Assembly: GCA_018644935.1 (NCBI GenBank)
Contig: JABGPL010000042.1
Coordinates: forward strand, 1 to 35,462
Source of the DNA: Calditrichota bacterium
GTDB taxonomy: Bacteria; Electryoneota; AABM5-125-24; Hatepunaeales; Hatepunaeaceae
DNA: 35,462 nucleotides
Reading direction: 5' to 3'
The notes under the pieces were generated by a model. It was not told the origin of the DNA. It did no database searches and saw nothing but the letters and a program-made list of their open reading frames with translations. Positions 578 to 35,462 of the stretch are shown in pieces. How positions within the stretch are numbered: position 1 is the stretch's first letter; each line of letters starts with the position of its first letter. A program made the position numbers and the translations under genes.

Positions 578-2502
578 TTAACTAAATTGATCGTCTGCGT
601 CTCAACCTGTTGGTTCTGCTGAAGTCTGATTGTATAGCTTCCAGCAGGTAGATCAGAGGCCTCAACAATAATGCAATGTTCCCCTGTTCCCAGATTGTTC
701 CCAGAAATTAAATCTCGGACCAGATGCCCAGTTATATCAAACATCTCTATCGATACTTCACCTTGAGAGACAATCGAGAATTCAACTGTAGCGGTCGAGT
801 TAAACGGATTTGGGTAAATTGCGTTTAAACCGAATTTTGCAGGTATCACTAAATCGTCATTAATCCCCAACTCAGTGACCTCAAGGCTGATATGAACAAT
901 AACTTCTGGATTGACGGGATCATTTGAGTCGAAAACGAGATCAGCTACGTATTGGTCCGGTTCTAAACCAGTCGTATCAATTGTCAAAATGAGGTCAATC
1001 GGATTCCAGGAATCCAGTTGACCTTCGGAAGGATCAATAGATAACCACTCTTCTTCAATTGTTGTTGACCATTCTAATAAAGAACTACCCTCATTTATGA
1101 GAATCAGTTCGTAATCCCCGCCATCGACGGACTCAATGATTAATGGGTCAACTCCGATTGTAGGAGGTGTTATATATATGGCGTGAACTGGAACCTGAAG
1201 GTCATTGTTTTCAGGATCGTTGGATACTATTGATATGTTATCCCTGTGCTCCCCCGGTACATTTGGTGTAAAAGTAACATTGATCTCAGTGCTCTCAAGT
1301 GGTTCAAGGTTAATTTGGTTAGCAAAGTCAACTGAGAAAATATCACTGTTGATTAAGATATCTTCTATTATCAGAAGATCAGTGCCTATGTTTGAAATTG
1401 TCATTATCTCAGTTCGAGGCTCCGGATCTTCGACATTGCCAAAATCAATCTCAGCTGGATTGACTTCAATTTCTGGAATTCCAGTGTAAGCCATTGATAT
1501 GTTTACTAAAACTTCTGGGGTTTCCGGATCATTAGAAAAGAAATGCATTTCAGCTTCGTACAGACCTCCAATTAATCCATCGACATTAATGGTTACCAAT
1601 ACTTCAACAGATTCATCAGGCTGAAGTTCACCTTCCTCAGGTTCCCATCCACTAACCCATTGCTGATCAACCCCATCTGGCTGATTAGTTATCTCGAGTT
1701 CTGTTCTCCAGATTAAGGCTTCTCCTCCTGCATTGCTAACGTTAATCGGGAACTCTCCCCCTTCCTCCCCCACATTAATTGCAAGTGGATCAACAACAAT
1801 CAATGGATGATCCGGATACTCAACAACAGCTCTTACACCAAAATTGTATCCTCTTTCGTAGACAATCTCGATCAAATCCCATACTTCCCATTCTGCATTC
1901 CAGAAACCGCTGCGGTCAGTTGGTTCGGCTTCTCCATCGTCTAATAGTACTGCGAGAGTATCTCTCTGGTTTCCCTGTAAAACATTCAACACAATGTGAA
2001 AATCGGCGATATCTTCAAAAAGAACAGGTTCAACATCATAGTCGGCAAAACTGAGGTCGGTCCATTGTATGTTATTCTCGGCTGAAAAGGTCAGGTCACC
2101 GTTTGGTACTTCAAAAGATGTGATTTCCTCGAGGGGGAATCCTTCTTCTGAGCTAAAAACAGCGACATCCATTCCAGGATTGCCGATATTCCCATCCATA
2201 TCAAATAGAGCTACTTGCAAACCAATTAGTTGAAATGGAGCTTCTTGAGGTGTAAACCTGACATTAAAACTGTGATCCTCAAGACCGTTGTAATCTGGTA
2301 ATGACAGATAATTTCCGAAGGTTTCTTCATCATCATAGGAAATGATCTCAACGGGATCACGGTGAGGGTTGTCTCGAACTTGTCCCGAAATGCCGATGTA
2401 TGTGGGTTGGTTGGCAAGGTTTCTTGTTGCCCGATTCTGATTGGCAAAAACTGCTGTTCCTGAAACCAGCAGAATTAAGAGAAAAACGATAGTTCTTCGC
2501 AT
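574..2502 (-). CDS. Secreted multi-domain protein with type IX C-terminal sorting domain
   Basis: The ATG at 2502 is preferred over in-frame starts further upstream because a GGAGA site precedes it and it places a clean signal peptide (MRRTIVFLLILLVSGTAVFA) at the N-terminus; the product is 642 residues. After an N-terminal region shared with the truncated paralogue at 1-393 come Ig-like modules (about 233-330), an ASH/choice-of-anchor-type module with N-I-G-T and F-T-P signatures (about 340-445), and a further module with E-E-W-L-S-I-D-P and S-N-D-P motifs (about 448-548). The last 85 residues are a sorting domain: Y-P-N-P-F-N near 561, then G-S-Y-T-I-R-L and the terminal N-L-V-K. Expected location is the cell surface or medium. 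No catalytic motif is visible, so it is probably structural or adhesive. Confidence 0.88.
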   Translation of the reverse strand: MRRTIVFLLILLVSGTAVFANQNRATRNLANQPTYIGISGQVRDNPHRDPVEIISYDDEETFGNYLSLPDYNGLEDHSFNVRFTPQEAPFQLIGLQVALFDMDGNIGNPGMDVAVFSSEEGFPLEEITSFEVPNGDLTFSAENNIQWTDLSFADYDVEPVLFEDIADFHIVLNVLQGNQRDTLAVLLDDGEAEPTDRSGFWNAEWEVWDLIEIVYERGYNFGVRAVVEYPDHPLIVVDPLAINVGEEGGEFPINVSNAGGEALIWRTELEITNQPDGVDQQWVSGWEPEEGELQPDESVEVLVTINVDGLIGGLYEAEMHFFSNDPETPEVLVNISMAYTGIPEIEVNPAEIDFGNVEDPEPRTEIMTISNIGTDLLIIEDILINSDIFSVDFANQINLEPLESTEINVTFTPNVPGEHRDNISIVSNDPENNDLQVPVHAIYITPPTIGVDPLIIESVDGGDYELILINEGSSLLEWSTTIEEEWLSIDPSEGQLDSWNPIDLILTIDTTGLEPDQYVADLVFDSNDPVNPEVIVHISLEVTELGINDDLVIPAKFGLNAIYPNPFNSTATVEFSIVSQGEVSIEMFDITGHLVRDLISGNNLGTGEHCIIVEASDLPAGSYTIRLQQNQQVETQTINLVK

Positions 2503-2638: not shown

Positions 2639-3403
2639 TTACCTGACGCTGCGTATACCGTTACTGCGGTTGTTTTCGATGATGCCACCACCACCGCCCC
2701 AGCCGCCGCCACCCCAGCCACCGCCGTCGCCACGTCCTTCAATTTGTAGCTCAACTTCGGTGTTCTGGTCTGCTTCGACTACGATTTCGGCACGAACCAT
2801 ACCTGCCATCATTGCGTTTGCCATAATGTTGTGATTCCCTGCGGGAACTTCATCAAAGGCAAAAGCACCTTCACGGTCGGTCATAACGAAAAGAGGTCTG
2901 AAACCGCCACGACCCATACCTCTAAATCCGCGCATTTCACGGAAATCAGGCATGATATTCACAAAAGCGCGTGCAACGGGTTCACCGTCAGCGTCAATGA
3001 CGACTCCGGAAACGGAACCAAATTCCACTTCCTCGTCTTCACCATCGCCGCCGCCGAATACTTCAAGCTGCAACTCAACATTTGTGACTTCATCGTCAGC
3101 CACTTCAACTTCCGCACGAACATGACCTGCTTCACGCGCACCAGCTGAGATGAAATATTCACCAGCTGGAACTTCTTCGAATAAGAATCCACCATTTTCA
3201 GCAGATTCGCCTCGAGCGTGAAACGGGCGTTCGCCACGTTCCCTGACAGCAGCGACTAAAACAACATGAGCCCCGGCAACCGGTTCACCATCTTGATCAA
3301 TCACTGCGCCTGCGACAACACCTTCAGCTTGAACCGCGTTCATTCCTGTAAAACCGAACGCGACCAATGCTAACAATGCGGCCATCAAGATTCCCTTTTT
3401 CAC
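2639..3403 (-). CDS. Small secreted protein, two carboxypeptidase-regulatory-like domains and a Gly-rich tail (copy 1)
   Basis: The start is GTG at 3403. A TTG at 3409 is also in frame but abuts the AAGGAG site (3410-3415) with no spacer, whereas the GTG is six bases away, and the ATG of the tandem paralogue (4266) aligns with it. The 254-residue product has a signal peptide ending near Q-A-E, then two repeats with G-A-V-I-D-Q-D-G-E-P-V-A-G-A type openings and E-V-P-A-G closings (about 27-115 and 130-215), the pattern of carboxypeptidase regulatory-like beta-sandwiches. The tail is G-G-G-W-G-G-G-G-rich and ends G-I-R-S-V-R. There is no Y-P-N-P-F-N sorting domain, so it is presumably exported to the periplasm by Sec. 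Role unknown; a structural or scaffold protein is a guess. Confidence 0.85.
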   Translation of the reverse strand: MKKGILMAALLALVAFGFTGMNAVQAEGVVAGAVIDQDGEPVAGAHVVLVAAVRERGERPFHARGESAENGGFLFEEVPAGEYFISAGAREAGHVRAEVEVADDEVTNVELQLEVFGGGDGEDEEVEFGSVSGVVIDADGEPVARAFVNIMPDFREMRGFRGMGRGGFRPLFVMTDREGAFAFDEVPAGNHNIMANAMMAGMVRAEIVVEADQNTEVELQIEGRGDGGGWGGGGWGGGGGIIENNRSNGIRSVR

Positions 3404-3409
3404 GAACAA

Positions 3410-3510: not shown

Positions 3511-4266
3511 CTATCTGGCGCTACGAATGCCCTGGTTTCGATTGTTGATGATACCACCACCACCACCATGATCGCCACGACCGCCGCCACCGTTACCACC
3601 GCCTCGTTCTTCAAACTGAAGTTCGATTTCGGTATTCTGATCGGCTTCTACTGCGACTTCGCCACGAACCATGCCAACTCTCATAGCGGTTGCGATAATG
3701 TTGTGATTCCCGGCCGGAACTTCGTCAAAAGCAAATGCGCCTTCTCTGTCGGTCACTACAAATAAACGTCCGCGGTGACCGCGCATGCCACGTACACCAC
3801 GCATTTCGCGGAAATTAGGCATGATTGCTACCATAGCGCGTGCTACAGGTTCACCTTCAGCATCAAGAACGACTCCGGAAACGGAACCAAATTCCACTTC
3901 CTCATCTTCACGATCTTCAAAGGCTTCAAGTTGCAATTGAATTTCGGTAACTTGATCGTCAGATACTTCAATTTCTGCACGAACATGACCTGCATCACGC
4001 ATACCAGCAGAGATGAAATATTCACCAGCCGGTACTTCTTCAAACATGAATCCACCATTTTCAGCTGATTCGCCTCGAGCGTGAAATGGGCGTTCGCCTC
4101 TTTCTCTTACAGCAGCCACTAATACAACATGAGCACCTTCAACCGGTGCGCCGTCTTGATCAATCACTGCACCTGCGACAACACCTTCAGCCTGAACCGT
4201 GTTCATTCCTGTGAAACCGAACGCGACCAAAGCCACCAATGCAGCCATTAAGATTCCCTTTCTCAT
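3511..4266 (-). CDS. Small secreted protein, two carboxypeptidase-regulatory-like domains and a Gly-rich tail (copy 2)
   Basis: The ATG at 4266 follows an AAGGAG site eight bases upstream. The 251-residue product is collinear with its neighbour at 2639-3403 and nearly identical in the signal peptide and first repeat, for example in A-A-V-R-E-R-G-E-R-P-F-H-A-R-G-E-S. They diverge in the acidic linker between the repeats (E-D-R-E-D-E-E here, a longer Gly/Asp stretch in the other) and in the Gly-rich tail, which here is G-G-N-G-G-G-G-R-G-D-H and carries no Trp. The two are a recent tandem duplication. Each has its own ribosome site and terminator, so they are probably separate transcripts. Function unknown. 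Confidence 0.85.
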   Translation of the reverse strand: MRKGILMAALVALVAFGFTGMNTVQAEGVVAGAVIDQDGAPVEGAHVVLVAAVRERGERPFHARGESAENGGFMFEEVPAGEYFISAGMRDAGHVRAEIEVSDDQVTEIQLQLEAFEDREDEEVEFGSVSGVVLDAEGEPVARAMVAIMPNFREMRGVRGMRGHRGRLFVVTDREGAFAFDEVPAGNHNIIATAMRVGMVRGEVAVEADQNTEIELQFEERGGGNGGGGRGDHGGGGGIINNRNQGIRSAR

Positions 4267-18859: not shown

Positions 18860-19678
18860 TTACTTGTGTTTGGGTAAATCCGGATATATTTCTCTTAAGC
18901 AATCGGGACAGATCCCGTGAATGAATTCACTCATTTCACTATCGGGTATATGATTCTCGGTATCTTGCCAGTTGCCTTTGTCATCTTTGATCCTCCCACA
19001 GGATGCACATAAGAAGGGTTTACTATTTCCATCATCAATTTTTTTGTGCTCAAGAAAATCCGGAAATATCTCTTTTTTACAACCTGGACAGATCCCATGT
19101 GAAAACTCAACCTTTGTACTGGCTCCTATGTAATCTTCGACCTCCTGCCAATATCCTTTGTCATCTCTAATTTTCTTGCATGATGCACATATTGGCAGCA
19201 AACCACTCAATGTCTGAATCCGAGATTGAGCCAATTCTAATTCTTCGTTCTTCTTTTTTAACTCATCTCTTTGGATTCGGATTTTTTTATATGAATCTGC
19301 GAGTGAGATTACCGAGCGAACACGCGCGATTAGCTCTATCATGTCATATGGTTTTCTTAAATAGTCAATTGCTCGCGCTTGGAAGGCAGTACTCAGGTCT
19401 TCAGACGATGTCATAAAACCGGTACATATAATCACAGGTATGTTTTCTGTTTTTTTATTGGATTTTAGTCGGTTGATTACCTCAATCCCTGAAATCCCTG
19501 GCATTACCCAGTCTATTATGATTAAATCCGGATCTTTTTCAGACGCTATTCGCAGACAAGTTTCACCATCCATAGCTTGGATAATGTCGTAATTCTCTTC
19601 AGTTCTCTCAAGGTATGCCACTAAAACCTTGAGACTTGAAGGTTCATCATCAACTACAAGAATTATCTTAGTACTCAT
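18860..19678 (-). CDS. Response regulator with two tandem four-cysteine (zinc-ribbon-like) modules
   Basis: The ATG at 19678 has a GGAG site upstream. Residues 1-125 are a receiver domain with the acidic pair D10/D11, phospho-acceptor D56 in I-I-D-W-V-M-P-G, T86 and K109 in L-R-K-P-Y-D. A charged coiled coil follows (about 128-157). The rest is two copies of a module of about 50 residues: L-P-I-C-A-S-C-K-K-I-R-D-D-K-G-Y-W with H-G-I-C-P-G-C (C164, C167, C197, C200), and F-L-C-A-S-C-G-R-I-K-D-D-K-G-N-W with H-G-I-C-P-D-C (C224, C227, C257, C260). This module is known at the C-terminus of many kinases and regulators, usually singly; its role is not established, and zinc binding is inferred from the cysteines. 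There is no DNA-binding or enzymatic output domain and no partner kinase in the window. Confidence 0.9.
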   Translation of the reverse strand: MSTKIILVVDDEPSSLKVLVAYLERTEENYDIIQAMDGETCLRIASEKDPDLIIIDWVMPGISGIEVINRLKSNKKTENIPVIICTGFMTSSEDLSTAFQARAIDYLRKPYDMIELIARVRSVISLADSYKKIRIQRDELKKKNEELELAQSRIQTLSGLLPICASCKKIRDDKGYWQEVEDYIGASTKVEFSHGICPGCKKEIFPDFLEHKKIDDGNSKPFLCASCGRIKDDKGNWQDTENHIPDSEMSEFIHGICPDCLREIYPDLPKHK

Positions 19679-25730: not shown

Positions 25731-26246
25731 TTGGATTTCGAACAATTATTAAAAGCCTGTTACAACGATGTTGTCAGGTATTCGCGGGCAATGGCTGGGT
25801 CAGCAGTTGATGGGGATGACCTCCTTCAGGATGCGCTGATTCGGGCGTGGAAGGGATTTCCGCGACTGAATGACCCGGACAGGTTTAAGTTCTGGTTGCT
25901 CAAAATTATCAAGAACACACACTTTTCAAGGTCCCGTTTACAATGGGCGAAGAGAATGTTTGGTCTTGAGGCAGCAGGAGATTTGCCCAGCACAGATGTT
26001 CTTCCATATGAGGAAAAAGAGCTCGTCAGGATGGCATTAAAACGATTACCTGAAGCACAGCGGGAGGCATTAATATTGTTTGAAGTCCTCAACATGAGCA
26101 TAGCTGAAGTAGCTATGCAACAGAAAATCACTAATTCCGCCGCAAAAAGCCGTCTGGCGCGAGGTAGAATCAAACTTCGCGAGGCGTATCAAGCTTTGTC
26201 AAACATGGAGGCTCGTCATGGAGCAAGAGTCGTACAACCCGGTTGA
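25731..26246 (+). CDS. ECF-type RNA polymerase sigma factor
   Basis: A 171-residue protein with the two ECF domains: region 2 (about 5-70, with D-D-L-L-Q-D-A-L-I-R-A-W-K-G and F-K-F-W-L-L-K-I-I-K-N) and region 4 (about 97-150, with L-P-E-A-Q-R-E-A-L-I-L-F-E-V and the HTH M-S-I-A-E-V-A...S-A-A-K-S-R-L-A-R-G-R). The start is TTG at 25731 with GAGG four bases upstream; there is no better start before region 2. The 3' end overlaps the next gene by 29 bases, so the two are translated together. By family knowledge it directs polymerase to an extracytoplasmic stress regulon and is held inactive by a partner anti-sigma factor, here probably the next gene. The targets may include the metal-efflux operon 1.5 kb downstream, which is inference from position. 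Confidence 0.92.
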   Translation: MDFEQLLKACYNDVVRYSRAMAGSAVDGDDLLQDALIRAWKGFPRLNDPDRFKFWLLKIIKNTHFSRSRLQWAKRMFGLEAAGDLPSTDVLPYEEKELVRMALKRLPEAQREALILFEVLNMSIAEVAMQQKITNSAAKSRLARGRIKLREAYQALSNMEARHGARVVQPG

Positions 26247-27063
26247 TCGAGGTTTGAAGCAACTGGCTGATGAAGAGCTCAAGCCTTTTCACTATGAACG
26301 AATGATGGCGGGAGTGCGGAGTAAAAACGAGAGGATTAGCCCAATCATGAACATCACAAGAAAAACAGCGCTCATTTCGGTAGCATTTGCAGTAATCGTA
26401 CTGGCTATGGTTCTTATTCCAGCCACTTATTCGATGAAAGTCGGGGATCTGGTCACCGCCGAGTTTGCGGTGGATGTTAATATCCCGAAGGGCGGAGCAT
26501 CACCGGCAGTAATGCCTGATTTGGATAATGTCATGAAGGCAGTTGAGGGTATTGAGGGAGTTGTCAACCGGAATTTGAATATCAATAACGGTAATGCCGA
26601 ATTGGTTATGACGTTCGTTGATAGAGACATTAAAGACGTTGAACCTGAGATAAGAGCAGCTCTGGCTGGAGTTGTCGACAAAAATGCAACAATATCTCTG
26701 CGAAGTGAAGAGATCACCAAACCGGTTGGAGGAAACGCACTTGCGGCTGTAACCAATGGAAGAGTTTGTATTGGTGTTGAAGGTCCGACAGATGAAGAGT
26801 TAGAAAATACCTTGAGAGCTGCTTTTGCATCTCAAGGACTCCAACTTACCGAAGTAGATGTAAAAACGGAACATATGGGAGACGGGGAGATTCGGCGGGA
26901 GATCAGAATTGGTGCAGTCGGAGCCGATGAAGGAGCTCTAGAAGACTGTGAAGGAGCCGCTGGAGTTGCTTTGGAGGCAATAGAAATCAACATGGATCAG
27001 GATGGTCAGGTTAGGATAATTAAGAAGTACATTGATGGGGATGATGAGAAAATAAGCCCTTGA
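26218..27063 (+). CDS. Single-pass membrane protein, probable anti-sigma factor of the preceding ECF sigma
   Basis: The ATG at 26218 lies inside the sigma gene, with GGAGG six bases upstream. The 281-residue product has a cytosolic N-terminus of about 50 residues (helical, R-G-L-K-Q-L-A-D-E-E-L), one membrane segment (about 51-69) and an extracytoplasmic part of about 210 residues. That part seems to hold two related halves of about 70-80 residues, each with an acidic helix followed by a beta-strand pair (D-V-E-P-E-I-R-A-A-L-A-G-V and D-E-E-L-E-N-T-L-R-A-A-F-A-S). The position and topology are those of an anti-sigma factor, but the H-x3-C-x2-C zinc motif is absent and I do not recognise the outer domain. 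The transcript should end at the hairpin at 27091-27122. Confidence 0.7.
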   Translation: MEQESYNPVDRGLKQLADEELKPFHYERMMAGVRSKNERISPIMNITRKTALISVAFAVIVLAMVLIPATYSMKVGDLVTAEFAVDVNIPKGGASPAVMPDLDNVMKAVEGIEGVVNRNLNINNGNAELVMTFVDRDIKDVEPEIRAALAGVVDKNATISLRSEEITKPVGGNALAAVTNGRVCIGVEGPTDEELENTLRAAFASQGLQLTEVDVKTEHMGDGEIRREIRIGAVGADEGALEDCEGAAGVALEAIEINMDQDGQVRIIKKYIDGDDEKISP

Positions 27064-27090
27064 GCCTGCTCGAAACATAAATAAGAGTAC

Positions 27091-27122
27091 CGTGACGCCT
27101 GATTAAAAAATCAGGCGTCACG
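27091..27122 (+). terminator. Terminator of the sigma/anti-sigma operon
   Basis: Perfect 14-base arms (27091-27104 and 27109-27122) containing GACGCCTGATT/AATCAGGCGTC around an AAAA loop, followed by AATTT. It lies 28 bases past the stop. Confidence 0.8.
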
Positions 27123-27257
27123 AATTTAACCCAAAAATAATATTGTAGGTGTAAGGAAATAGAATACACTGGTATATGATTTTAGAAAGTATTATATTAT
27201 AAAATATCTTGTTCATGAAAAATGGAACCAGAGGACAGTTATTATTGTAAAAGGGAT

Positions 27258-27587
27258 ATGAGGAAACACCCCAACATATTAAAAAATCTGATTTCGATTC
27301 TTGTTGTTTTTGCATTTTGTGTCGCAATGACTCACGTTTTGATTGATTATGCCGCACCGCATGAATCACATTCAGATCATTGTTCAGAAGATGTTCCAGT
27401 TCGGGCGAATAATCAGGATATGGGTGCCTCGGATGATTGCTCATGCTTATGTCACATCTTTGAGCAAAAGTCATTAACTTTCTCAAGCCTGCAAATATAC
27501 ATGCCCAGCTTCCTGTTGGAGCTTCCACCAAACCTATCACCGAAATCGACCTATCCCGAGAGGATAGAGCGTCCCCCTCAAGCTTAG
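27258..27587 (+). CDS. Small exported Cys/His-rich protein ahead of the metal-efflux operon
   Basis: From ATG 27258 the product is 109 residues, starting with a signal sequence or anchor (MRKHPNILKN then I-S-I-L-V-V-F-A-F-C-V-A-M). An in-frame ATG at 27222 is possible but has no ribosome site and would add 12 residues before the signal. After the membrane segment come H-E-S-H-S-D-H-C and then D-D-C-S-C-L-C-H, a dense cluster of metal-type ligands. The end, Y-P-E-R-I-E-R-P-P-Q-A, resembles small proteins I recall being encoded beside heavy-metal RND operons in several phyla. No domain name can be given with certainty. It lies 163 bases before the outer-membrane factor gene on the same strand. 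A periplasmic metal-binding or sensing role is inferred from residues and context. A longer antisense ORF (27118-27540) was considered a shadow. Confidence 0.6.
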   Translation: MRKHPNILKNLISILVVFAFCVAMTHVLIDYAAPHESHSDHCSEDVPVRANNQDMGASDDCSCLCHIFEQKSLTFSSLQIYMPSFLLELPPNLSPKSTYPERIERPPQA

Positions 27588-27750
27588 TTTTTTACCAATC
27601 GAATGTATTTCCTAATCTGATTTTCTAAAATACGGATTATGGACATACTCAGACTTAGCTTAAATAAACGAAAAAAACACCTTAAGAAACTTCTTTCCGA
27701 ATAAACGGGATTAAAGAAGTTATTACGAGTTACAACTCGGAGGAACACCA

Positions 27751-29073
27751 TTGTTTGGTAAAATTATTATCTTCCTGTTGATGATTTCTGCATCCATATC
27801 TGGGATAACATCCCTCCTTGCAGAACCATTGACTATAAATGAGGCGGTTCGGTTAACGCTTAAAACACATCCAGATGTGAAGATTGCTTCAGCCCTGATT
27901 GAGGAGGCTAAAGGGAATCGAATGAGTGAGCTTTCTCTCTCTTCTCCCGGATTAGCGATCGAATACGAAGGCATTCCAGATGGGGAGGGATTTTCAGAAT
28001 ATGAGGAAAGGCGGATTGCAATTTCTCAGGAGTTTGAATTTCCACTTCGATACATCTGGCTCAGTCGATCTGCTAATATAGAGGTTGAGCTTGCTAGATT
28101 GGAAAGTAGATCTTTGCTACTCGACCTTGAAGCTCGAATTAGGCAAACTTATTTTGATACCTGGATTCAAATTCGCTCGAATGAAATCCTAACAGAAATT
28201 TCATTGGGTGCGGAAAGCTATGCTCAAAAAATTGAGAGACAATTCGAGTTAGGAGAAGCCTCTCGGCTTGACGCAAAACGGGCTCGCCTTGAGGCTCTCG
28301 AAGTTAAGGGGCAGCTTAAAAATGCAATTCGGTCTGTTGCGACGGCAAAATTAAAATTGGCGTCACTAACAGGTTATGATGTTAGTGACGTGGAATTGGT
28401 GTTCTCACTAGATGACAACCAAATTGACACAGACCGGATAGGTAGAGCATTGTTAGATCTCAAAAGCACCTCTAATCAGGTGATAAAAGAGCCAATTGCA
28501 GATAATCCGGAGACAGCCTTCATACAGGCGGAATTAGAACTTGCGGGAACTGCAAAAACGCTCAGTAGAACAGCATGGTTGCCCGAGCTCGAATTCAGTT
28601 ACTTTCAGCAAACAGTTCCAGACGATGATTCTGAATTCTGGGGAGTTGAGCTCGGCTTCAATTTGCCAGTTTGGTTCTGGTGGGGTGGAAGAGGGGATAT
28701 GAAAGTTGCTGAAGCTCATGAGAAAAATATTAAAGAACAACTCGCAGCCAATCAGATAGATGTGCTCTCCGAATGGCAGGAGATTGCACAGAATCTCGTA
28801 TCGGCGGTTGAAAGGTATGACTTATACAAACATGATATTCTGCCTCTTAGTCAAGAAACTTATGAACTTTCCATACGAAGTTTTGATGTAGGTGAGGCGG
28901 ATTACTTTGAGGTAATAGATGCTCAAAGAAACTTGCTGGATGTGCAGCTCGACTTCCTCGAGACAACAGGTGATGTATACAGCAATCAGATCGAAATCGA
29001 CCGTCTCGAAGGACGATCGATTCTTGATTATGAAAATAAAGGTAATGAAGGCGATACCCGGAGAAAACCATGA
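27751..29073 (+). CDS. Outer-membrane efflux protein (TolC/CusC-type)
   Basis: The TTG start at 27751 has GGAGG seven bases upstream and begins a signal peptide (MFGKIIIFLLMISASISG). The 440-residue product has the usual outer-membrane efflux layout: L-T-I-N-E-A-V-R-L-T-L-K-T-H-P-D-V near the mature N-terminus, two repeated helical halves (about 35-220 and 235-420), and the motif S-F-D-V-G-E-A-D-Y-F-E-V-I-D-A-Q-R-N-L-L-D near the end, typical of the second half. It should form the trimeric outer-membrane channel of the efflux system. Its TGA overlaps the ATG of the adaptor gene (ATGA, 29070-29073), showing translational coupling. Confidence 0.92.
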   Translation: MFGKIIIFLLMISASISGITSLLAEPLTINEAVRLTLKTHPDVKIASALIEEAKGNRMSELSLSSPGLAIEYEGIPDGEGFSEYEERRIAISQEFEFPLRYIWLSRSANIEVELARLESRSLLLDLEARIRQTYFDTWIQIRSNEILTEISLGAESYAQKIERQFELGEASRLDAKRARLEALEVKGQLKNAIRSVATAKLKLASLTGYDVSDVELVFSLDDNQIDTDRIGRALLDLKSTSNQVIKEPIADNPETAFIQAELELAGTAKTLSRTAWLPELEFSYFQQTVPDDDSEFWGVELGFNLPVWFWWGGRGDMKVAEAHEKNIKEQLAANQIDVLSEWQEIAQNLVSAVERYDLYKHDILPLSQETYELSIRSFDVGEADYFEVIDAQRNLLDVQLDFLETTGDVYSNQIEIDRLEGRSILDYENKGNEGDTRRKP

Positions 29074-30434
29074 AACTAAGATTTCAGAAAATAAATTTAA
29101 AAGTGCTTTTCTTTGCAATGATAGGTATTTCACTCATCGGTTATGTTGGTGGTTCTTTTGCAGTAGATGATGATCCACACGCCGGGCACGACCATGCTAA
29201 GGTTGAAGAATATGAAGCTGAGGAACTCGATCCACATGCTGGGCATGACCACGGATCTGAAGAGGCTGAAGAAGCTGACTCACATGCGGGTAATGATCAT
29301 GAAGCAGAAGAGGTTGATCCTCATGCCGGACATGACCACGGAGTTGATGAAGCTGATGATCATGCGGGTGTTATACATATAGGGATGCAGGGGATTAAAG
29401 AGGCAGGAATTGTTGTAGAACGGGTGAAAAAGGGAACTTTGAAAAGCAACTTAAATTTACCCGGTACAGTTTTGCCGCATCCGAATGGAGAAGGACTGGT
29501 CGGGGCGTTGATCGAAGGGAGGATCAAAGCTCTGTATGCAGATTACGGTGACTACGTTGAGGCTGGAGAAGCTCTTTGTATGATTGAATCTCCGACGGTA
29601 GGTGAGGCAGAAGCGGCATTTGCTATATCAATGGCTGAATATACATTCATAAAAAGTGATCATATCCGTCACCAACAGCTTGTTCAAGAGGGGATTGGCT
29701 CTCAGAAGGAAGTACTCGAACTGAAAATGCAGCTTGATATGGTTCAGAATACCTTGAAGTCTGCTGAAAACACCTTAATGGCATTAGGTTTTTCAATGAG
29801 TGATATTGAGAAACTGAGATCGGGGCAGCAAACAGCCGGTGTCGTTACGCTTCGCAGTCCGATCTCAGGATCAGTAGTAAACAGGGAAGCTCGATTGGGG
29901 ATGAAAGTAAACCCTGACATGGATTTGTTTCACATTGTTAATAACAGTAGGGTCAGGGTGCAGGTCAATATTCCTGAACATGAAATACAAAACATCATTC
30001 CAGGTATGGACGTACAGGTTTCATCACTTAATGGCACTGGAAATGTTCTTTTCGCATCAATAGATAGAATTTCAGGCATGATCTCGGAGGATACCAGAAC
30101 TGTCACGGCATTCGTAGACGTATCCAATCCCAAAAAGAATCTCCTGCCCGGAGCTTATGTCACAGTCAACATCGACATGGATAAGGGATCAGAAGAAGCG
30201 TTTTTAGTTCCTGTTGAATCGGTCATTTGTGACGAGCACGGAGACAAGCTCGTGTATGTAGAGGTTGAACCCGGAGGTTTCGGCGAACGCGAAATAGAAA
30301 CCGGATACAGTAAGGGTGGGTGGTATGAAGTATCCGAAGGGCTGATGATGGGTGAGCGCATTGTTATGAAAGGTGCGTTTGCTATTAAATCCGAGGCTGG
30401 AAAAAGTGAGTTTCATGGCGGTTGTTCACACTAA
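29070..30434 (+). CDS. Periplasmic adaptor (membrane fusion) subunit with His-rich repeats, CusB/CzcB-type
   Basis: A 454-residue membrane-fusion protein. After a signal or anchor (about 1-31) residues 37-103 hold four H-A-G-[HN]-D-H repeats separated by acidic spacers, with 13 histidines in all. A standard adaptor body follows: a barrel-sandwich half-motif (G-A-L-I-E-G-R-I-K-A-L-Y-A-D-Y-G-D-Y-V), a helical hairpin (about 185-250), the second lipoyl half (L-R-S-P-I-S-G-S-V-V) and a beta-barrel (V-Q-V-N-I-P-E-H-E-I, P-G-A-Y-V-T-V-N-I). It bridges the RND pump and the outer-membrane channel. The His repeats probably bind divalent metal such as zinc, nickel, cobalt or copper. GGAG lies six bases before the ATG, and the gene overlaps its upstream neighbour by four bases. 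Confidence 0.93.
   Translation: MKLRFQKINLKVLFFAMIGISLIGYVGGSFAVDDDPHAGHDHAKVEEYEAEELDPHAGHDHGSEEAEEADSHAGNDHEAEEVDPHAGHDHGVDEADDHAGVIHIGMQGIKEAGIVVERVKKGTLKSNLNLPGTVLPHPNGEGLVGALIEGRIKALYADYGDYVEAGEALCMIESPTVGEAEAAFAISMAEYTFIKSDHIRHQQLVQEGIGSQKEVLELKMQLDMVQNTLKSAENTLMALGFSMSDIEKLRSGQQTAGVVTLRSPISGSVVNREARLGMKVNPDMDLFHIVNNSRVRVQVNIPEHEIQNIIPGMDVQVSSLNGTGNVLFASIDRISGMISEDTRTVTAFVDVSNPKKNLLPGAYVTVNIDMDKGSEEAFLVPVESVICDEHGDKLVYVEVEPGGFGEREIETGYSKGGWYEVSEGLMMGERIVMKGAFAIKSEAGKSEFHGGCSH
29178..29339 (+). repeat. In-frame tandem repeats encoding D-P-H-A-G-H-D-H
   Basis: Four imperfect units spaced 39-57 bases apart encode the His-rich segment of the adaptor. They share a GAYYCNCAYGC...GAYCAYG pattern with mostly synonymous changes, showing selection on the protein motif. 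Confidence 0.75.
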
Positions 30435-30446
30435 AAGAGATAAACT

Positions 30447-33400
30447 ATGTTGAAGAATCTTATTGAATTTTCCATCAACCGTCGGTTGCTTCTTGGATTA
30501 TTCCTACTTGTAGTGATCGGAGTGGGAGCCGTTTCATATCGACAACTTCCAGTCGATGCTTTCCCGGATATCTCACCAATCATGGTGCCTGTTTTTGCAG
30601 AAGCTCACGGTATGGCTCCGGAGGAGGTTGAGAGGTTAATTACATATCCCATCGAAACGGCAATGAATGGTTTGCCCGGTATTACTGATATTAGGTCAAC
30701 ATCTGCGTTTGGTATGGCTGTAATTTATATCTATTTCAAGGATGAAATCGATATATACTTTGCCCGGCAATTAGTGTCTGAACGATTAAATACTGCAATG
30801 GCAGACTTACCGGAAATGCATGAACCACCGGGATTAGGTCCAATATCTACAGGACTGGGTCAGGTATTCATGTATTACCTTACAGCTGATGAAACAGTAG
30901 ACACTGATGGGCAACCGCTGGATATTTACCTGAGAACGTTGAATGACTGGGTGGTAAAATACCAGATCGGTACCGTTCCAGGTGTTACGGAAGTACTATC
31001 AATGGGCGGAAACGTACTTCAGTTTCAAGTTAATTTAGATCCACACAAATTAATGGCATACGACCTTGGTCTTGAAGAAGTTGTTGAAGCCATTCAGGAG
31101 AACAACAGAAATGTTGGTGGTCAGTTTATAATCCGGGGTAGAGAAGAATATCTCATTCGGGGTCTTGGACTACTGGAAAACGCAGAGCAACTCTCGCAAA
31201 TTAAGATTAAGGAAGTTGATGGTGTTGTAGTCCGCTTAAGTCAAGTCGCGAATGTTAATATCGGTCCAGAAATTCGGCGCGGTGTTGTCCTGAAGGATGG
31301 AGTTGGTGAGGTTGTCTCTGGAATAGTGTTAAAACTCTTCGGGGAGAATACCAGTAATGTAATTGAAAACCTCTACACAAAAATCGATGATATAAAAGAG
31401 GGTCTACCGCAAGGTGTCCAACTCGTTCCATTCTACGAGCAAGCCGATCTCGTCACCAAAGCCACCGGCACTGTAAAGAACGCATTGTTTACGGGTGCGA
31501 TCCTGGTAATTTTGGTACTTCTGCTGTTTTTGGGAAATGTTCGAAGTGCGCTGGTTGTGGCGGTTTCTTTGCCAATGTCAATGTTGATGGCATTTCTGTT
31601 TATGAAACAAACGGGGATATCAGCAAATCTTATGTCGCTCGGGGGATTGGCAATCGCAATTGGTATGATTGTCGATGGTGCGGTGGTAATGGTCGAAAAT
31701 ATCTGGCGGCATTTGGCGGAGTCTGATGGCAAAAAGTCGCTAAAAGAAGTTATTCTAATTGCAGGGCAAGAGGTCTCAAGACCGATTGCATTTGCAATTG
31801 TTATCATCATCATCGTATTCCTGCCACTGTTTACACTGGAAGGAATTGAAGGAAAAATGTTCAGTCCGATGGCTTTCACAATTACATTCGGATTGATCGG
31901 TTCGTTAATTTTCAGTTTCACGCTCATCCCTTTCCTTGCTTCATTATTTTTCAGAGGAAAAATATCCAATAAGGATAACTTTTTAGTTAAGGGAATTAAA
32001 AGTTCCTATAAAGCAATTCTAACTAAGATTATTGCTAAACCACTAATGGTAATTCTGCCTTCTGTAATAGCTCTGGGGATTAGTCTTCTCCTCATACCAC
32101 ATTTGGGTACAGAATTCATTCCCACGCTGGAGGAAGGAGCAATCTCTGTTCAAGTGATTGCTGCTCCTTCAACTTCTTTGGAAGAGATGACGCGGATTCT
32201 TGAAATTCAGCAGGAAAAGATGGCAAAGCACCAGGAGGTGACGTATTGTGTAACCTTAATTGGCAGACCAGAAGCTGGGTCGCATCCTCATCCAGTTAAT
32301 ACCGCTCATATCCAATTAGGCTTGATACCATTTAAGGAATGGGATTCTGGGCGAACCAAGCAAGATCTTATCAACGAGATACGAGTTGAATTAGAAGCCT
32401 ATCCGGGTATTCAAATTGCCGTTTCTCAGCCAATCCAAAACATGTTTGATGAGCTTTTGTCCGGTGTTAAGGCTGAGCTTGCAATTAAACTGTTCGGCGA
32501 AGACCTCGAGGTGTTAAGAACAAAAGGTGATGAAATCAAAAATCTGCTGGGCAACGTCGAGGGCATTGCTGATTTATCGCTTGAACAATCATTCGGTCAA
32601 CCGCAGGTTCAAATTGATGTCGATAATGAGATTGCTGCGAGATACGGTCTTGGTGTCGATGACATAATGGAGACCATTGAGATCGGTATTGGTGGCGAGG
32701 TTATCGGTCAGGTATATCAACAGACGCGCAGATTCGGAATATTAGTCAGGTATGATGACCGATTCAGAGATGATGTTGACGCTATTGGAAACATCAGGAT
32801 TCATACCTCTAGCGGGAGTTTTGTACCTCTTTCTACAGTTGCAAAAATCAGCGAGGTTTTAGGTCCGATCCAGATTAATCGGGAGAAAAATCAGCGTCGT
32901 ATTGTGGTACAGGCAAATGTTGAAGGTCGAGATCTCGGAAGTGTTGTCAATGAAATGCAAGCTGTGTTAAAGGAAAATTTGGAGCTGCCACCTGGATACT
33001 TCATTGAATATGGTGGACAATTTGAGAATCAACGTAGGGCAATGGCACGATTAGGGATTATTGTGCCATTGACAATGCTAATTATTTTCATCCTGTTGTT
33101 CTCAGCATTCAACAATATGCGCCATGCGATATTAATTTACCTGAACATTCCTTTTGCATTAATCGGTGGTGTTTTAGCCCTTTATATAACAGGCCAATAT
33201 TTGTCTGTACCGGCATCAATCGGTTTTATTGCCCTGTTCGGGAATGCTGTACAAAATGGCATTGTGATGGTCAGCTATTTCAATGATCTTCGAAAGAAAG
33301 GACTGCCTCTTAACGAAGTAATTCTAAAAGGAGCTGTTTTGCGAGTCAGGCCAGTTTCTATGACTGCACTTACAACAATTTTGGGATTAGTCCCGTTACT

Positions 33401-33545
33401 TATTGCAACTGGAATTGGTTCTGAAATTCAAAGACCTCTGGCTATTGTTGTCGTTGGTGGCCTTCTTACATCCACCACCCTGACCTTGTACTTGTTGCCA
33501 TCACTATACGGCATCATCGAACGTAAGTGGGGTAAGGAAAATTGA
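30447..33545 (+). CDS. Heavy-metal efflux RND pump, CusA/CzcA family
   Basis: A 1032-residue inner-membrane RND transporter, complete and of normal family length. It starts M-L-K-N-L-I-E-F-S-I-N-R-R and has Y-R-Q-L-P-V-D-A-F-P-D-I-S-P, two large periplasmic loops and twelve helices. TM4 reads A-I-A-I-G-M-I-V-D-G-A-V-V-M-V-E-N, with the proton-relay Asp410 and Glu417 but without the earlier Asp of the CzcA-type D-F-G triad. This is nearer to CusA-type (monovalent Cu/Ag) pumps, although D-G-A-V-V-M is mixed. Later motifs include G-F-I-A-L-F-G-N-A-V-Q-N-G-I-V-M-V. The gene is 12 bases after the adaptor gene, third in the operon. Substrate call: heavy metal, ion uncertain. Confidence 0.94.
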   Translation: MLKNLIEFSINRRLLLGLFLLVVIGVGAVSYRQLPVDAFPDISPIMVPVFAEAHGMAPEEVERLITYPIETAMNGLPGITDIRSTSAFGMAVIYIYFKDEIDIYFARQLVSERLNTAMADLPEMHEPPGLGPISTGLGQVFMYYLTADETVDTDGQPLDIYLRTLNDWVVKYQIGTVPGVTEVLSMGGNVLQFQVNLDPHKLMAYDLGLEEVVEAIQENNRNVGGQFIIRGREEYLIRGLGLLENAEQLSQIKIKEVDGVVVRLSQVANVNIGPEIRRGVVLKDGVGEVVSGIVLKLFGENTSNVIENLYTKIDDIKEGLPQGVQLVPFYEQADLVTKATGTVKNALFTGAILVILVLLLFLGNVRSALVVAVSLPMSMLMAFLFMKQTGISANLMSLGGLAIAIGMIVDGAVVMVENIWRHLAESDGKKSLKEVILIAGQEVSRPIAFAIVIIIIVFLPLFTLEGIEGKMFSPMAFTITFGLIGSLIFSFTLIPFLASLFFRGKISNKDNFLVKGIKSSYKAILTKIIAKPLMVILPSVIALGISLLLIPHLGTEFIPTLEEGAISVQVIAAPSTSLEEMTRILEIQQEKMAKHQEVTYCVTLIGRPEAGSHPHPVNTAHIQLGLIPFKEWDSGRTKQDLINEIRVELEAYPGIQIAVSQPIQNMFDELLSGVKAELAIKLFGEDLEVLRTKGDEIKNLLGNVEGIADLSLEQSFGQPQVQIDVDNEIAARYGLGVDDIMETIEIGIGGEVIGQVYQQTRRFGILVRYDDRFRDDVDAIGNIRIHTSSGSFVPLSTVAKISEVLGPIQINREKNQRRIVVQANVEGRDLGSVVNEMQAVLKENLELPPGYFIEYGGQFENQRRAMARLGIIVPLTMLIIFILLFSAFNNMRHAILIYLNIPFALIGGVLALYITGQYLSVPASIGFIALFGNAVQNGIVMVSYFNDLRKKGLPLNEVILKGAVLRVRPVSMTALTTILGLVPLLIATGIGSEIQRPLAIVVVGGLLTSTTLTLYLLPSLYGIIERKWGKEN

Positions 33546-33780: not shown

Positions 33781-35462
33781 TTATGAATCCTCTACTGAGT
33801 GGTAACGTGTCCCCCAACGTTTGTATAGAACCGGCAATACCAGCAAAGTAAGAATTGTGGAGGTTATAATTCCTCCGATGACGACAGTTGCAAGCGGTCG
33901 TTGAACCTCCGCCCCAACACCATTTGACATTGCCATCGGAACAAAACCGAGGGATGCTACAAGCGCTGTCATTATCACCGGACGCAACCGCTGGAGACCT
34001 CCCAGTTTAATTGCGACATCAATTCCATTACCTTGTTTTACGAGATTACGTATCGCCGACACCAAAACAAGACCATTGAGGACCGCTATGCCGGATAAAG
34101 CGATGAATCCTACACCTGCAGAAATACTAAATGGCATAGCACGAATCACCAAAGCAAATACCCCGCCTACCGCTGCCAATGGTACACCACTAAAAATTAA
34201 TAATGCGTCCCTGATACTCTTGAATGACAGATAGAGGAGACCAAAGATCATCATCAACGCGATGGGAACCACAATCATTAATCTTGTGCGAGCGCGTTCA
34301 AGATTTTCAAACTGCCCTCCATAGCGAATGAAATAACCAGTCTCCAATAGAACTTCTTTTTCTAATTTTGCTCGAACCTCGCCGATGAATGAGTCAATAT
34401 CCCGTCCACGTACATTACATTGGACAACGACTCGTCGTTTGCCCCATTCCCGGGTGATTGTTGAAGGTCCCTCTGTCTGTTCAAATCTGGCAACTTGACC
34501 TAAAGGAATATGCTCCCCGGCTTGACCATATAGCAATATTTTATGCAGTGCTTCAGGCGTACGGGTAAATGTCGTATCGAATTTGACTGCCAATTCAAAC
34601 CGCCTTTGATCCTCCCGAACCTCGCCAACCACCGAACCACCGATCATTTTGATTGACTCGAGAACGACTTCCGAGGAGAGCGAATATCTGGAAAGTGACT
34701 TCCGATCTACAATCAATTTCAGAACCGGTTGACCTGTGATCTGCTCCTGATTCAGGTCAGCCACTCCTTGAATTTCACCGACTATTTTGGATATTTGATC
34801 TGCTTTTTGTTTTAGAATTTCCATATCATCACCAAAAACCTTTATACCTACATCGGTGCGGATGCCTGAGATCATCTCATTAAAGCGCATTTCTATCGGC
34901 TGGGTAAAGCCCATGTTCATTCCTGGAAGATCCGATAACTCGGCATCCATCATCTCCACAAGTTGCTGTTGGTTATTCGTCTGCTTCCACTCCTCTCTTG
35001 GCTTCATGGCAATAAACACATCAGCTAACTCGACTCCCATCGGATCAGTTGCAACTTCCGGAGTTCCAGTTCTTGTCCAGATCTCAGCAACCTCGTCAGG
35101 AAATTTCTCCTTCAGTAATTTCTCGACATGTGCGCCTTGATCGGTGGACTGTTCGAGTGAAATTCCAGCAAGGCGTATAAGATTGACGACAATACTTCCT
35201 TCAGAGAGCTTTGGTATAAATTCCGCACCCAAACGAGTAAAAGTTATCCCCGCAATCGCCACTAGCACTAAAGTGCCAATCAGGACGAGGCGACCTCTGC
35301 TCATACACCACTCAAGAATCGGTCTATAAAGACTTTGGAGAGTTTTTACCAACCACATTTCCCCTGGGTCTTTTTTTGATCTCATTGGTAGGATAGTCGC
35401 ACATAGTGCTGGAATTGCAGTGAATGAGAGTATTAAAGATCCTCCCAACGCCAGGATTACCG
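33781..35462 (-). CDS. Second heavy-metal efflux RND pump, C-terminal half, cut by the right window edge
   Basis: The frame is open from the right edge to TAA 33781-33783, giving about 560 residues with no start in the window. The apparent start at 35448 is an internal TTG; codons before it continue V-I-L-A-L-G-G-S-L-I-L. The sequence covers the end of the first transmembrane block (L-S-F-T-A-I-P-A-L-C-A-T-I-L), the second periplasmic loop (R-T-G-T-P-E-V-A-T-D-P-M-G-V-E) and the last helices (G-F-I-A-L-S-G-I-A-V-L-N-G-L-V). The L-S-G-I-A-V-L-N-G signature and the T-D-P-M-G motif are nearer to CzcA-type (divalent) pumps than the pump at 30447-33545. The TM4 signature that would settle this is outside the window. 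Its operon partners should lie to the right. Confidence 0.9.
   Translation of the reverse strand, partial: VILALGGSLILSFTAIPALCATILPMRSKKDPGEMWLVKTLQSLYRPILEWCMSRGRLVLIGTLVLVAIAGITFTRLGAEFIPKLSEGSIVVNLIRLAGISLEQSTDQGAHVEKLLKEKFPDEVAEIWTRTGTPEVATDPMGVELADVFIAMKPREEWKQTNNQQQLVEMMDAELSDLPGMNMGFTQPIEMRFNEMISGIRTDVGIKVFGDDMEILKQKADQISKIVGEIQGVADLNQEQITGQPVLKLIVDRKSLSRYSLSSEVVLESIKMIGGSVVGEVREDQRRFELAVKFDTTFTRTPEALHKILLYGQAGEHIPLGQVARFEQTEGPSTITREWGKRRVVVQCNVRGRDIDSFIGEVRAKLEKEVLLETGYFIRYGGQFENLERARTRLMIVVPIALMMIFGLLYLSFKSIRDALLIFSGVPLAAVGGVFALVIRAMPFSISAGVGFIALSGIAVLNGLVLVSAIRNLVKQGNGIDVAIKLGGLQRLRPVIMTALVASLGFVPMAMSNGVGAEVQRPLATVVIGGIITSTILTLLVLPVLYKRWGTRYHSVEDS

Follow-up and report, generated by a model that had tools for sequence, protein, structure and literature searches.

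The window, a 35,462-nucleotide stretch of DNA, raises the question of what a very small exported protein, rich in cysteine and histidine, does at the head of a heavy-metal efflux operon. An earlier note had described one membrane segment, HESHSDHC and DDCSCLCH clusters and a PPQA end in this protein. All of these were confirmed in the translation of 27258-27587 (MRKHPNIL...HESHSDHC...DDCSCLCH...IERPPQA), in which the C-terminus reads RPPQA, and the position ahead of a tripartite heavy-metal pump was also borne out, with genes for a TolC/OEP protein, a CusB/HlyD adaptor and a CusA/CzcA-family RND permease following (Table 1). An alternative in-frame ATG of this upstream open reading frame (uORF) stands at 27222; 27258 is preferred as the start on account of the homologs and the AAAAGGGA stretch that precedes it. 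The hydrophobic helix near the N-terminus could, from its sequence, be either a signal peptide or an N-in/C-out anchor.

Table 1. Positions of the uORF, its leader and the pump genes in the window.
Feature	Position	Strand	Basis or remark
uORF, 109-aa exported Cys/His mini-protein ending in RPPQA	27258..27587	+	
Export helix, residues 11-27	27288..27338	+	Hydropathy; AlphaFold2 helix 5-32 at high pLDDT
HESHSDHC, residues 35-42	27360..27383	+	His/Asp region, loose conservation
DDCSCLCH, putative metal site, residues 59-66	27432..27455	+	C61/C63 conservation, spacing
RPP, putative ribosome-arrest motif, residues 105-107	27570..27578	+	Both Pro invariant in family
Anti-SD CCUC (P107 codon and first Q108 base)	27576..27579	+	Predicted pairing with TolC-gene SD
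Intergenic leader with hairpins, 163 nt	27588..27750	+	Folding
Leader hairpin AACTTCTTT / AAAGAAGTT	27688-27696 / 27713-27721	+	Folding
Leader hairpin CGAGT-TACA-ACTCG	27726-27739	+	Folding
Shine-Dalgarno (SD) CGGAGG of TolC-family gene	27738..27743	+	Predicted sequestered
TolC/OEP outer-membrane factor, CusC/CzcC-like, TTG start	27751..29073	+	Pfam PF02321, E 2.4e-36
CusB/CzcB-like (CusB/HlyD) periplasmic adaptor	29070..30434	+	Pfam PF16576; NCBIfam TIGR01730 above cut-off
Heavy-metal RND permease, CusA/CzcA family	30447..33545	+	TIGR00914, 1079.7 bits; closest structure ZneA

Judged from its relatives, the 109-aa ORF is genuine and not a product of chance. In each of seven related genomes, a relative at 22-34% identity lies just 5' of a TolC gene. 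Among a trio of relatives (L046, L047 and L048), dN/dS for the uORF was 0.28-0.43 and the shifted-frame pN/pS was about 1, which indicates that the uORF protein is under purifying selection. Pfam and NCBIfam scans gave no real match to the window protein, which none of their models recognises, and for the uORF family as a whole they gave weak CopL and DUF2946 matches only. A profile search showed the family to be conserved: a profile of 17 members matched 18 of 39 phylum genomes and, at the same cut-off, 1 of 347 genomes outside. Its named relatives, Candidatus Electryonea, Hatepunaea, Tariuqbacter and LCP-89, put the lineage in the phylum Electryoneota. Throughout this Electryoneota / LCP-89 lineage the members stand 5' of TolC/RND metal-efflux genes, and both the ORF and its cysteines are conserved before orthologous pump operons, where their absence would have spoken against the earlier proposal. 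In the lone match outside the phylum (L065), the downstream gene reads as an RND adaptor.

A search of the named genomes that started from TolC recovered the uORF in 8/9, a result only partly independent of the first because the query alignment was built from uORF-selected loci. One TolC homolog (L051) lacks an RPP uORF and has, in the same position, another exported Cys-bearing small ORF (LCSGKNGHLAIE...) with no PP. The TolC search of plasmids returned distant homologs only, at about 24% identity or less; of the leaders inspected, two carry CzcI-like proteins (L071 and L073), and the remainder have no uORF of this type. These two loci bear on the reading, still open for CzcI-like proteins, that the mini-protein is a stable, membrane-anchored inhibitor or sensor acting on a separate regulator. 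CzcI-like proteins with an ERPxW end precede czcCBA-type genes in the Betaproteobacterial plasmids, and a role as metal-sensing regulator has been proposed for CzcI (PMC9973294). We consider this reading most improbable for the window, since no two-component system adjoins the operon, what lies upstream is an ECF sigma factor with a single-helix protein and a strong hairpin, and the RNA evidence described below is in cis. The ECF sigma factor and its single-helix partner, which belongs to no recognised family, occupy 25731-27063 (+), 5' of the uORF, and a hairpin of 15 bp (27090-27123) separates them from it.

Several loci of the survey depart from the usual arrangement. In L031, two different uORFs ending in RPP lie divergently at 1868-2488 (+) and, on the other strand, at 1471-1821 in reverse-complement coordinates, each followed by a TolC-family gene; on the + side, a further short ORF stands between the uORF and the TolC-family gene. 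In L030 (genome G028) and L064 (G008), Cys-rich uORFs ending in HPP precede genes resembling those for carboxypeptidase-regulatory-domain proteins or TonB receptors instead of TolC, which suggests that this type of leader serves other envelope genes too. A CruR-like uORF with CPIC ... NPRAPPLTTA was found ahead of an outer-membrane-receptor-like gene in L033 (G006), and the same genome additionally carries an HPP-type uORF before its efflux operon.

Conservation within the protein is confined to a few elements. Across 19 aligned sequences, M1, C61, P106 and P107 are the only invariant residues and C63 is nearly invariant; the family retains the export helix, the CxC(xCH) cluster and the C-terminal (R/H)PP only. 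The C-termini follow (E/D/Y)(R/H)PP(E/Q/R), with Q also occurring before PP, and the window ends in ERPPQA. Both clusters had been put forward as metal ligands: the cysteines of DDCSCLCH are conserved in the family, and HESHSDHC is kept only loosely. The distance from the last cluster Cys to PP was 42.5 +/- 2.2, and its distance from the N-terminus was 58.0 +/- 8.7. In nearly all of the 21 members compared, a set that takes in one CruR-like member at 47, the last cluster Cys lies 41-46 residues ahead of PP, and the cysteines of the window are at PP-45, -43 and -41. L065 has a spacing of 37 by its last Cys, though Cys is also present at 40-46.

This pattern bears on the possibility that the mature protein is a periplasmic metallochaperone or buffer, comparable to CusF, that passes metal to the pump or stores it. 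Export, the abundance of Cys and His and the place as first gene of the operon would all suit such a protein, but the fixed Cys-PP spacing and the invariant C-terminal PP have no obvious chaperone purpose, and exported CutF is rapidly degraded (PMC9973294). The predicted fold is likewise limited to the export helix and a low-confidence helix: AlphaFold2 gave a confident helix at residues 5-32 only (mean pLDDT 62.5, pTM 0.30), with the remainder of the model largely disordered. A folded chaperone is therefore unlikely, within the limits that a shallow alignment sets on this inference, and we regard the chaperone or buffer as very unlikely overall. Of the roles of sensor, chaperone or buffer offered earlier, the mature chaperone or buffer was disfavoured, with only CxC(xCH) and PP conserved at fixed spacing and a largely disordered model. 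The sensor was retained as one acting in cis during its own translation, as the codons around and after RPP are predicted to serve also as the anti-SD of the pump gene.

In the window, the CCUC at 27576-27579 was predicted to pair with the SD with a probability of about 0.86. In several relatives, the TolC-gene SD is predicted to be paired with the last uORF codons and the stop codon, for example UUCUCCUGA with GGAGGA. The first folding null, in which the intergenic region alone was shuffled, was dropped as uninformative for SD pairing because the anti-SD sits inside the uORF. Against a null of synonymous uORF recoding plus shuffling of the intergenic region, SD-complementary helices of at least 5 bp peaked at +12 to +17 nt, counted from the first nucleotide of RPP's first Pro codon, in 12 of 19 loci (null mean 3.5). 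When the null was allowed to choose its own position, p was 0.002-0.01, whether all loci were used, the window was left out or the set was thinned to 13 loci, 9 of which carry such a helix at the peak. A 5-bp anti-SD at the peak is absent in L048, L050, L043, L044, L026, L030 and L065; L026 is nonetheless part of the set with a covarying stem. The strong anti-SD of the window, at +3 to +6, lies within the ribosome footprint and off the +12 to +17 peak.

The stem covaries over five loci, with 86.7% of cells paired versus 32-52% in slid versions and four pairs altered on both sides; comparable stems of differing sequence occur at the same place in L029 and L063. Depending on the length of the tail past PP, the anti-SD lies ahead of the stop codon, overlaps it or follows it, and thus appears tied to the position of arrest rather than to that of the stop codon. 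Toeprints lie about 15 nt away from the codon in the P-site. When RAPP peptides stall, the P-site holds the first of the two prolines (PMC10951233), and the same is true of CruR (PMC12992588). Given this stall state and the ribosome edge, +12 to +17 would correspond to the leading edge of a ribosome with the first Pro in its P-site.

The effect of a ribosome at RPP on the leader was also computed. Masking 27558-27588, the RPP footprint, in the window raised P(GGAGG unpaired) from 0.05 to 0.38, an effect matched by none of 300 synonymous recodings and by one of 300 leaders with a shuffled intergenic region. When the whole leader was folded with ribosome masking in 18 loci, clear SD release was seen only in the window and L064, and at most other loci alternative pairings held the SD closed or the effect of masking was small. 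For this reason, a full switch is not claimed for every locus. An Rfam search of the window gave no match.

Considering these results, we propose that the mini-protein is probably a metal sensor that works in cis as a nascent chain, in the manner of CutF, and turns on translation of the pump. In this model, the N-terminal helix would target the mini-protein to the Sec translocon, and with the ribosome at the RPP codons the CxCxCH cluster would stand about 41-45 residues from the peptidyl-transferase centre, past the exit tunnel, at the translocon or within it. Metal on the cluster would delay release of the chain, and the stalled ribosome would sit over the RPP codons and those immediately following, a stretch predicted to pair with the TolC-gene SD when the mRNA is free. 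The SD would be freed and the pump made. Without metal, translation would be completed, the stem would re-form and the peptide would be discarded. We infer arrest at RPP and metal binding by the cluster; as the ends read (E/D/Y)(R/H)PP(E/Q/R) and not RAPP/RGPP, arrest cannot be assumed. The direction in which metal would promote the stall and so turn translation on, as in CutF, was chosen because it makes sense for an efflux pump and that of CruR does not. More tentatively, and as a possibility rather than an expectation, the family may form a distinct sensor clade in which a single mRNA stretch holds the (R/H)PP(E/Q/R) arrest motif, a tail and an anti-SD at the leading edge of the ribosome, and in which arrest itself would work the switch.

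The leader of the window also allows a mechanism closer to CruR, in which an RPP stall would keep Rho off the leader and metal would alter the stall, so that Rho-dependent termination and not SD masking would set expression. The 163-nt intergenic region is long, which argues against a simple switch, and it is close to the Rho-controlled 162 nt of CruR (PMC9426467). A search of the + strand from the uORF to the TolC gene showed no intrinsic terminator, and the CPIC/RAPP uORF of L033 places a CruR-like leader in the same phylum. However, a short leader, of 58-69 nt, is common in the family, and in CruR metal turns the operon off, a poor fit to an efflux pump. Pairing of SD and anti-SD at the ribosome edge is enriched in this family and showed no clear peak in DUF2946 comparison loci (4/14, null 2.4, p 0.18), although this is a weak comparison because start codons were assigned automatically and some are doubtful. 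The lack of a clear peak in the DUF2946 loci agrees with their different, Rho-based control. We therefore judge Rho-dependent control unlikely for this family and retain SD release by a stalled ribosome as the preferred reading.

The pump suggests which metal might be sensed. Among solved structures, the zinc pump ZneA is nearest to the permease (E 5.6e-215, against 2.7e-186 for CusA). At the positions of the CusA methionine triad and Glu625, the alignment, read by eye, gave Gln, Thr and Glu for the triad and His for Glu625. Copper specificity was rejected as unproven, because the permease is closer to ZneA and lacks the methionine triad of CusA, and from these residues divalent ions appear at least as likely as copper. 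As the pump has no copper-type methionine relay, the sensor may respond to a divalent ion, for instance zinc, cobalt or nickel, and not to copper.

Other parts of the window contain further possible metal sites. The adaptor has repeated HAGHDH-type His-rich segments ahead of its barrel-sandwich domain and HGGCSH at its C-terminus, which together form a second candidate metal-binding region of the operon. A second CusA-like RND permease gene (33781-35448, -) faces the first in convergent orientation and is apparently truncated where the contig stops, and its leader falls outside the window. In the product of the gene at 18860-19678 (-), a response-regulator receiver precedes two copies of a CASCxxIxDDKGxWQ motif, which resemble a module for metal or redox binding. 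Tandem paralogs at 2639-3409 and 3511-4266 (-) encode Gly-rich repeat proteins, each with two repeats of the carboxypeptidase-regulatory-like type.

The principle of cotranslational sensing is already known from CutF and CruR, and so are CutF-like proteins 5' of OEP genes as a class. The lineage, the putative non-RAPP arrest motif and the predicted anti-SD built into the codons that follow it are new. The proposed reading would carry cotranslational metal sensing into an uncultured phylum and into genes left unlabelled by family models. The positional rule, with Cys about 41-46 residues before PP and an anti-SD about 12-17 nt past the first Pro codon, could be used to find such sensors from DNA alone. 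The system also opens tests of how metal outside the tunnel holds the ribosome, and of sensors for metals other than copper.

A close parallel is CutF of Rhodobacter capsulatus, whose nascent chain binds copper, so that export is delayed and the ribosome opens a stem over the cutO SD; by experiment, this regulation depends on the stem as well as on the Cys motif and the proline-rich end (PMC9973294). The two share a small exported protein, a Cys metal motif that is putative in the window, a C-terminal Pro motif, first place in a metal operon and the SD of the next gene in a stem-loop, which for the window is predicted. By the rules used for CutF-like proteins, the window protein is below 150 aa (109 aa), has a hydrophobic helix at 11-27 where a signal peptide is expected, ends in RPPQA and has a TolC gene 163 nt downstream; CutF-like genes most often have an OEP (TolC) gene as neighbour (PMC9973294). 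In contrast, CutF has CxxxC and a multicopper oxidase downstream where the window uORF has CxCxCH and an RND pump, and the predicted partner of the SD in the window is formed by the codons at and after RPP.

CruR, a DUF2946 protein (PF11162) of Bordetella pertussis, shares the export signal, putative here, the Cys motif, the place at the operon head and a C-terminal Arg/Pro-Pro. In more than 2,000 homologs of CruR, the 45 residues from CXXC to RAPP are constant within one or two residues, and lengthening the spacer by five strongly reduced the copper effect (PMC9426467); a conserved Cys-to-arrest-motif spacing of about 45 residues is thus common to both. CruR differs in its CxxC and RAPP, its Rho-dependent termination, a copper response that switches the operon off and an import receptor downstream, whereas the window has CSCLCH (C-x-C-x-C) and ERPPQA in place of CXXC and RAPP/RGPP. 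PF11162 gave no match to the window protein at E<=10, and in the DUF2946 search of the phylum no genome lay above the cut-off, the weak matches leading to L033.

Three members of the uORF family match the CopL family (NF033807) weakly, from the Cys region to the C-terminus, at 14-20 bits (19.6 for the best relative) versus a cut-off of 40; NF033807 did not match the window protein itself. In the account cited in PMC9973294, Cu regulation of the gene that follows requires CopL, which is inactive in trans. CzcI-like proteins have in common an exported His/Cys protein immediately 5' of a TolC gene and a C-terminal ERPxW, but they lack the PP motif, are otherwise unrelated in sequence and act by an unproven mechanism. 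SecM, ApdA and ApdP also combine an exported uORF, a C-terminal Arg/Pro arrest element (putative here) and regulation of the next gene (PMC10951233), but they monitor protein export instead of metals and use RAPP or RAGP, compared with (R/H)PP(E/Q/R). As far as sequence can tell, the uORF works like CutF and CruR, yet it is not a DUF2946 protein by present models.
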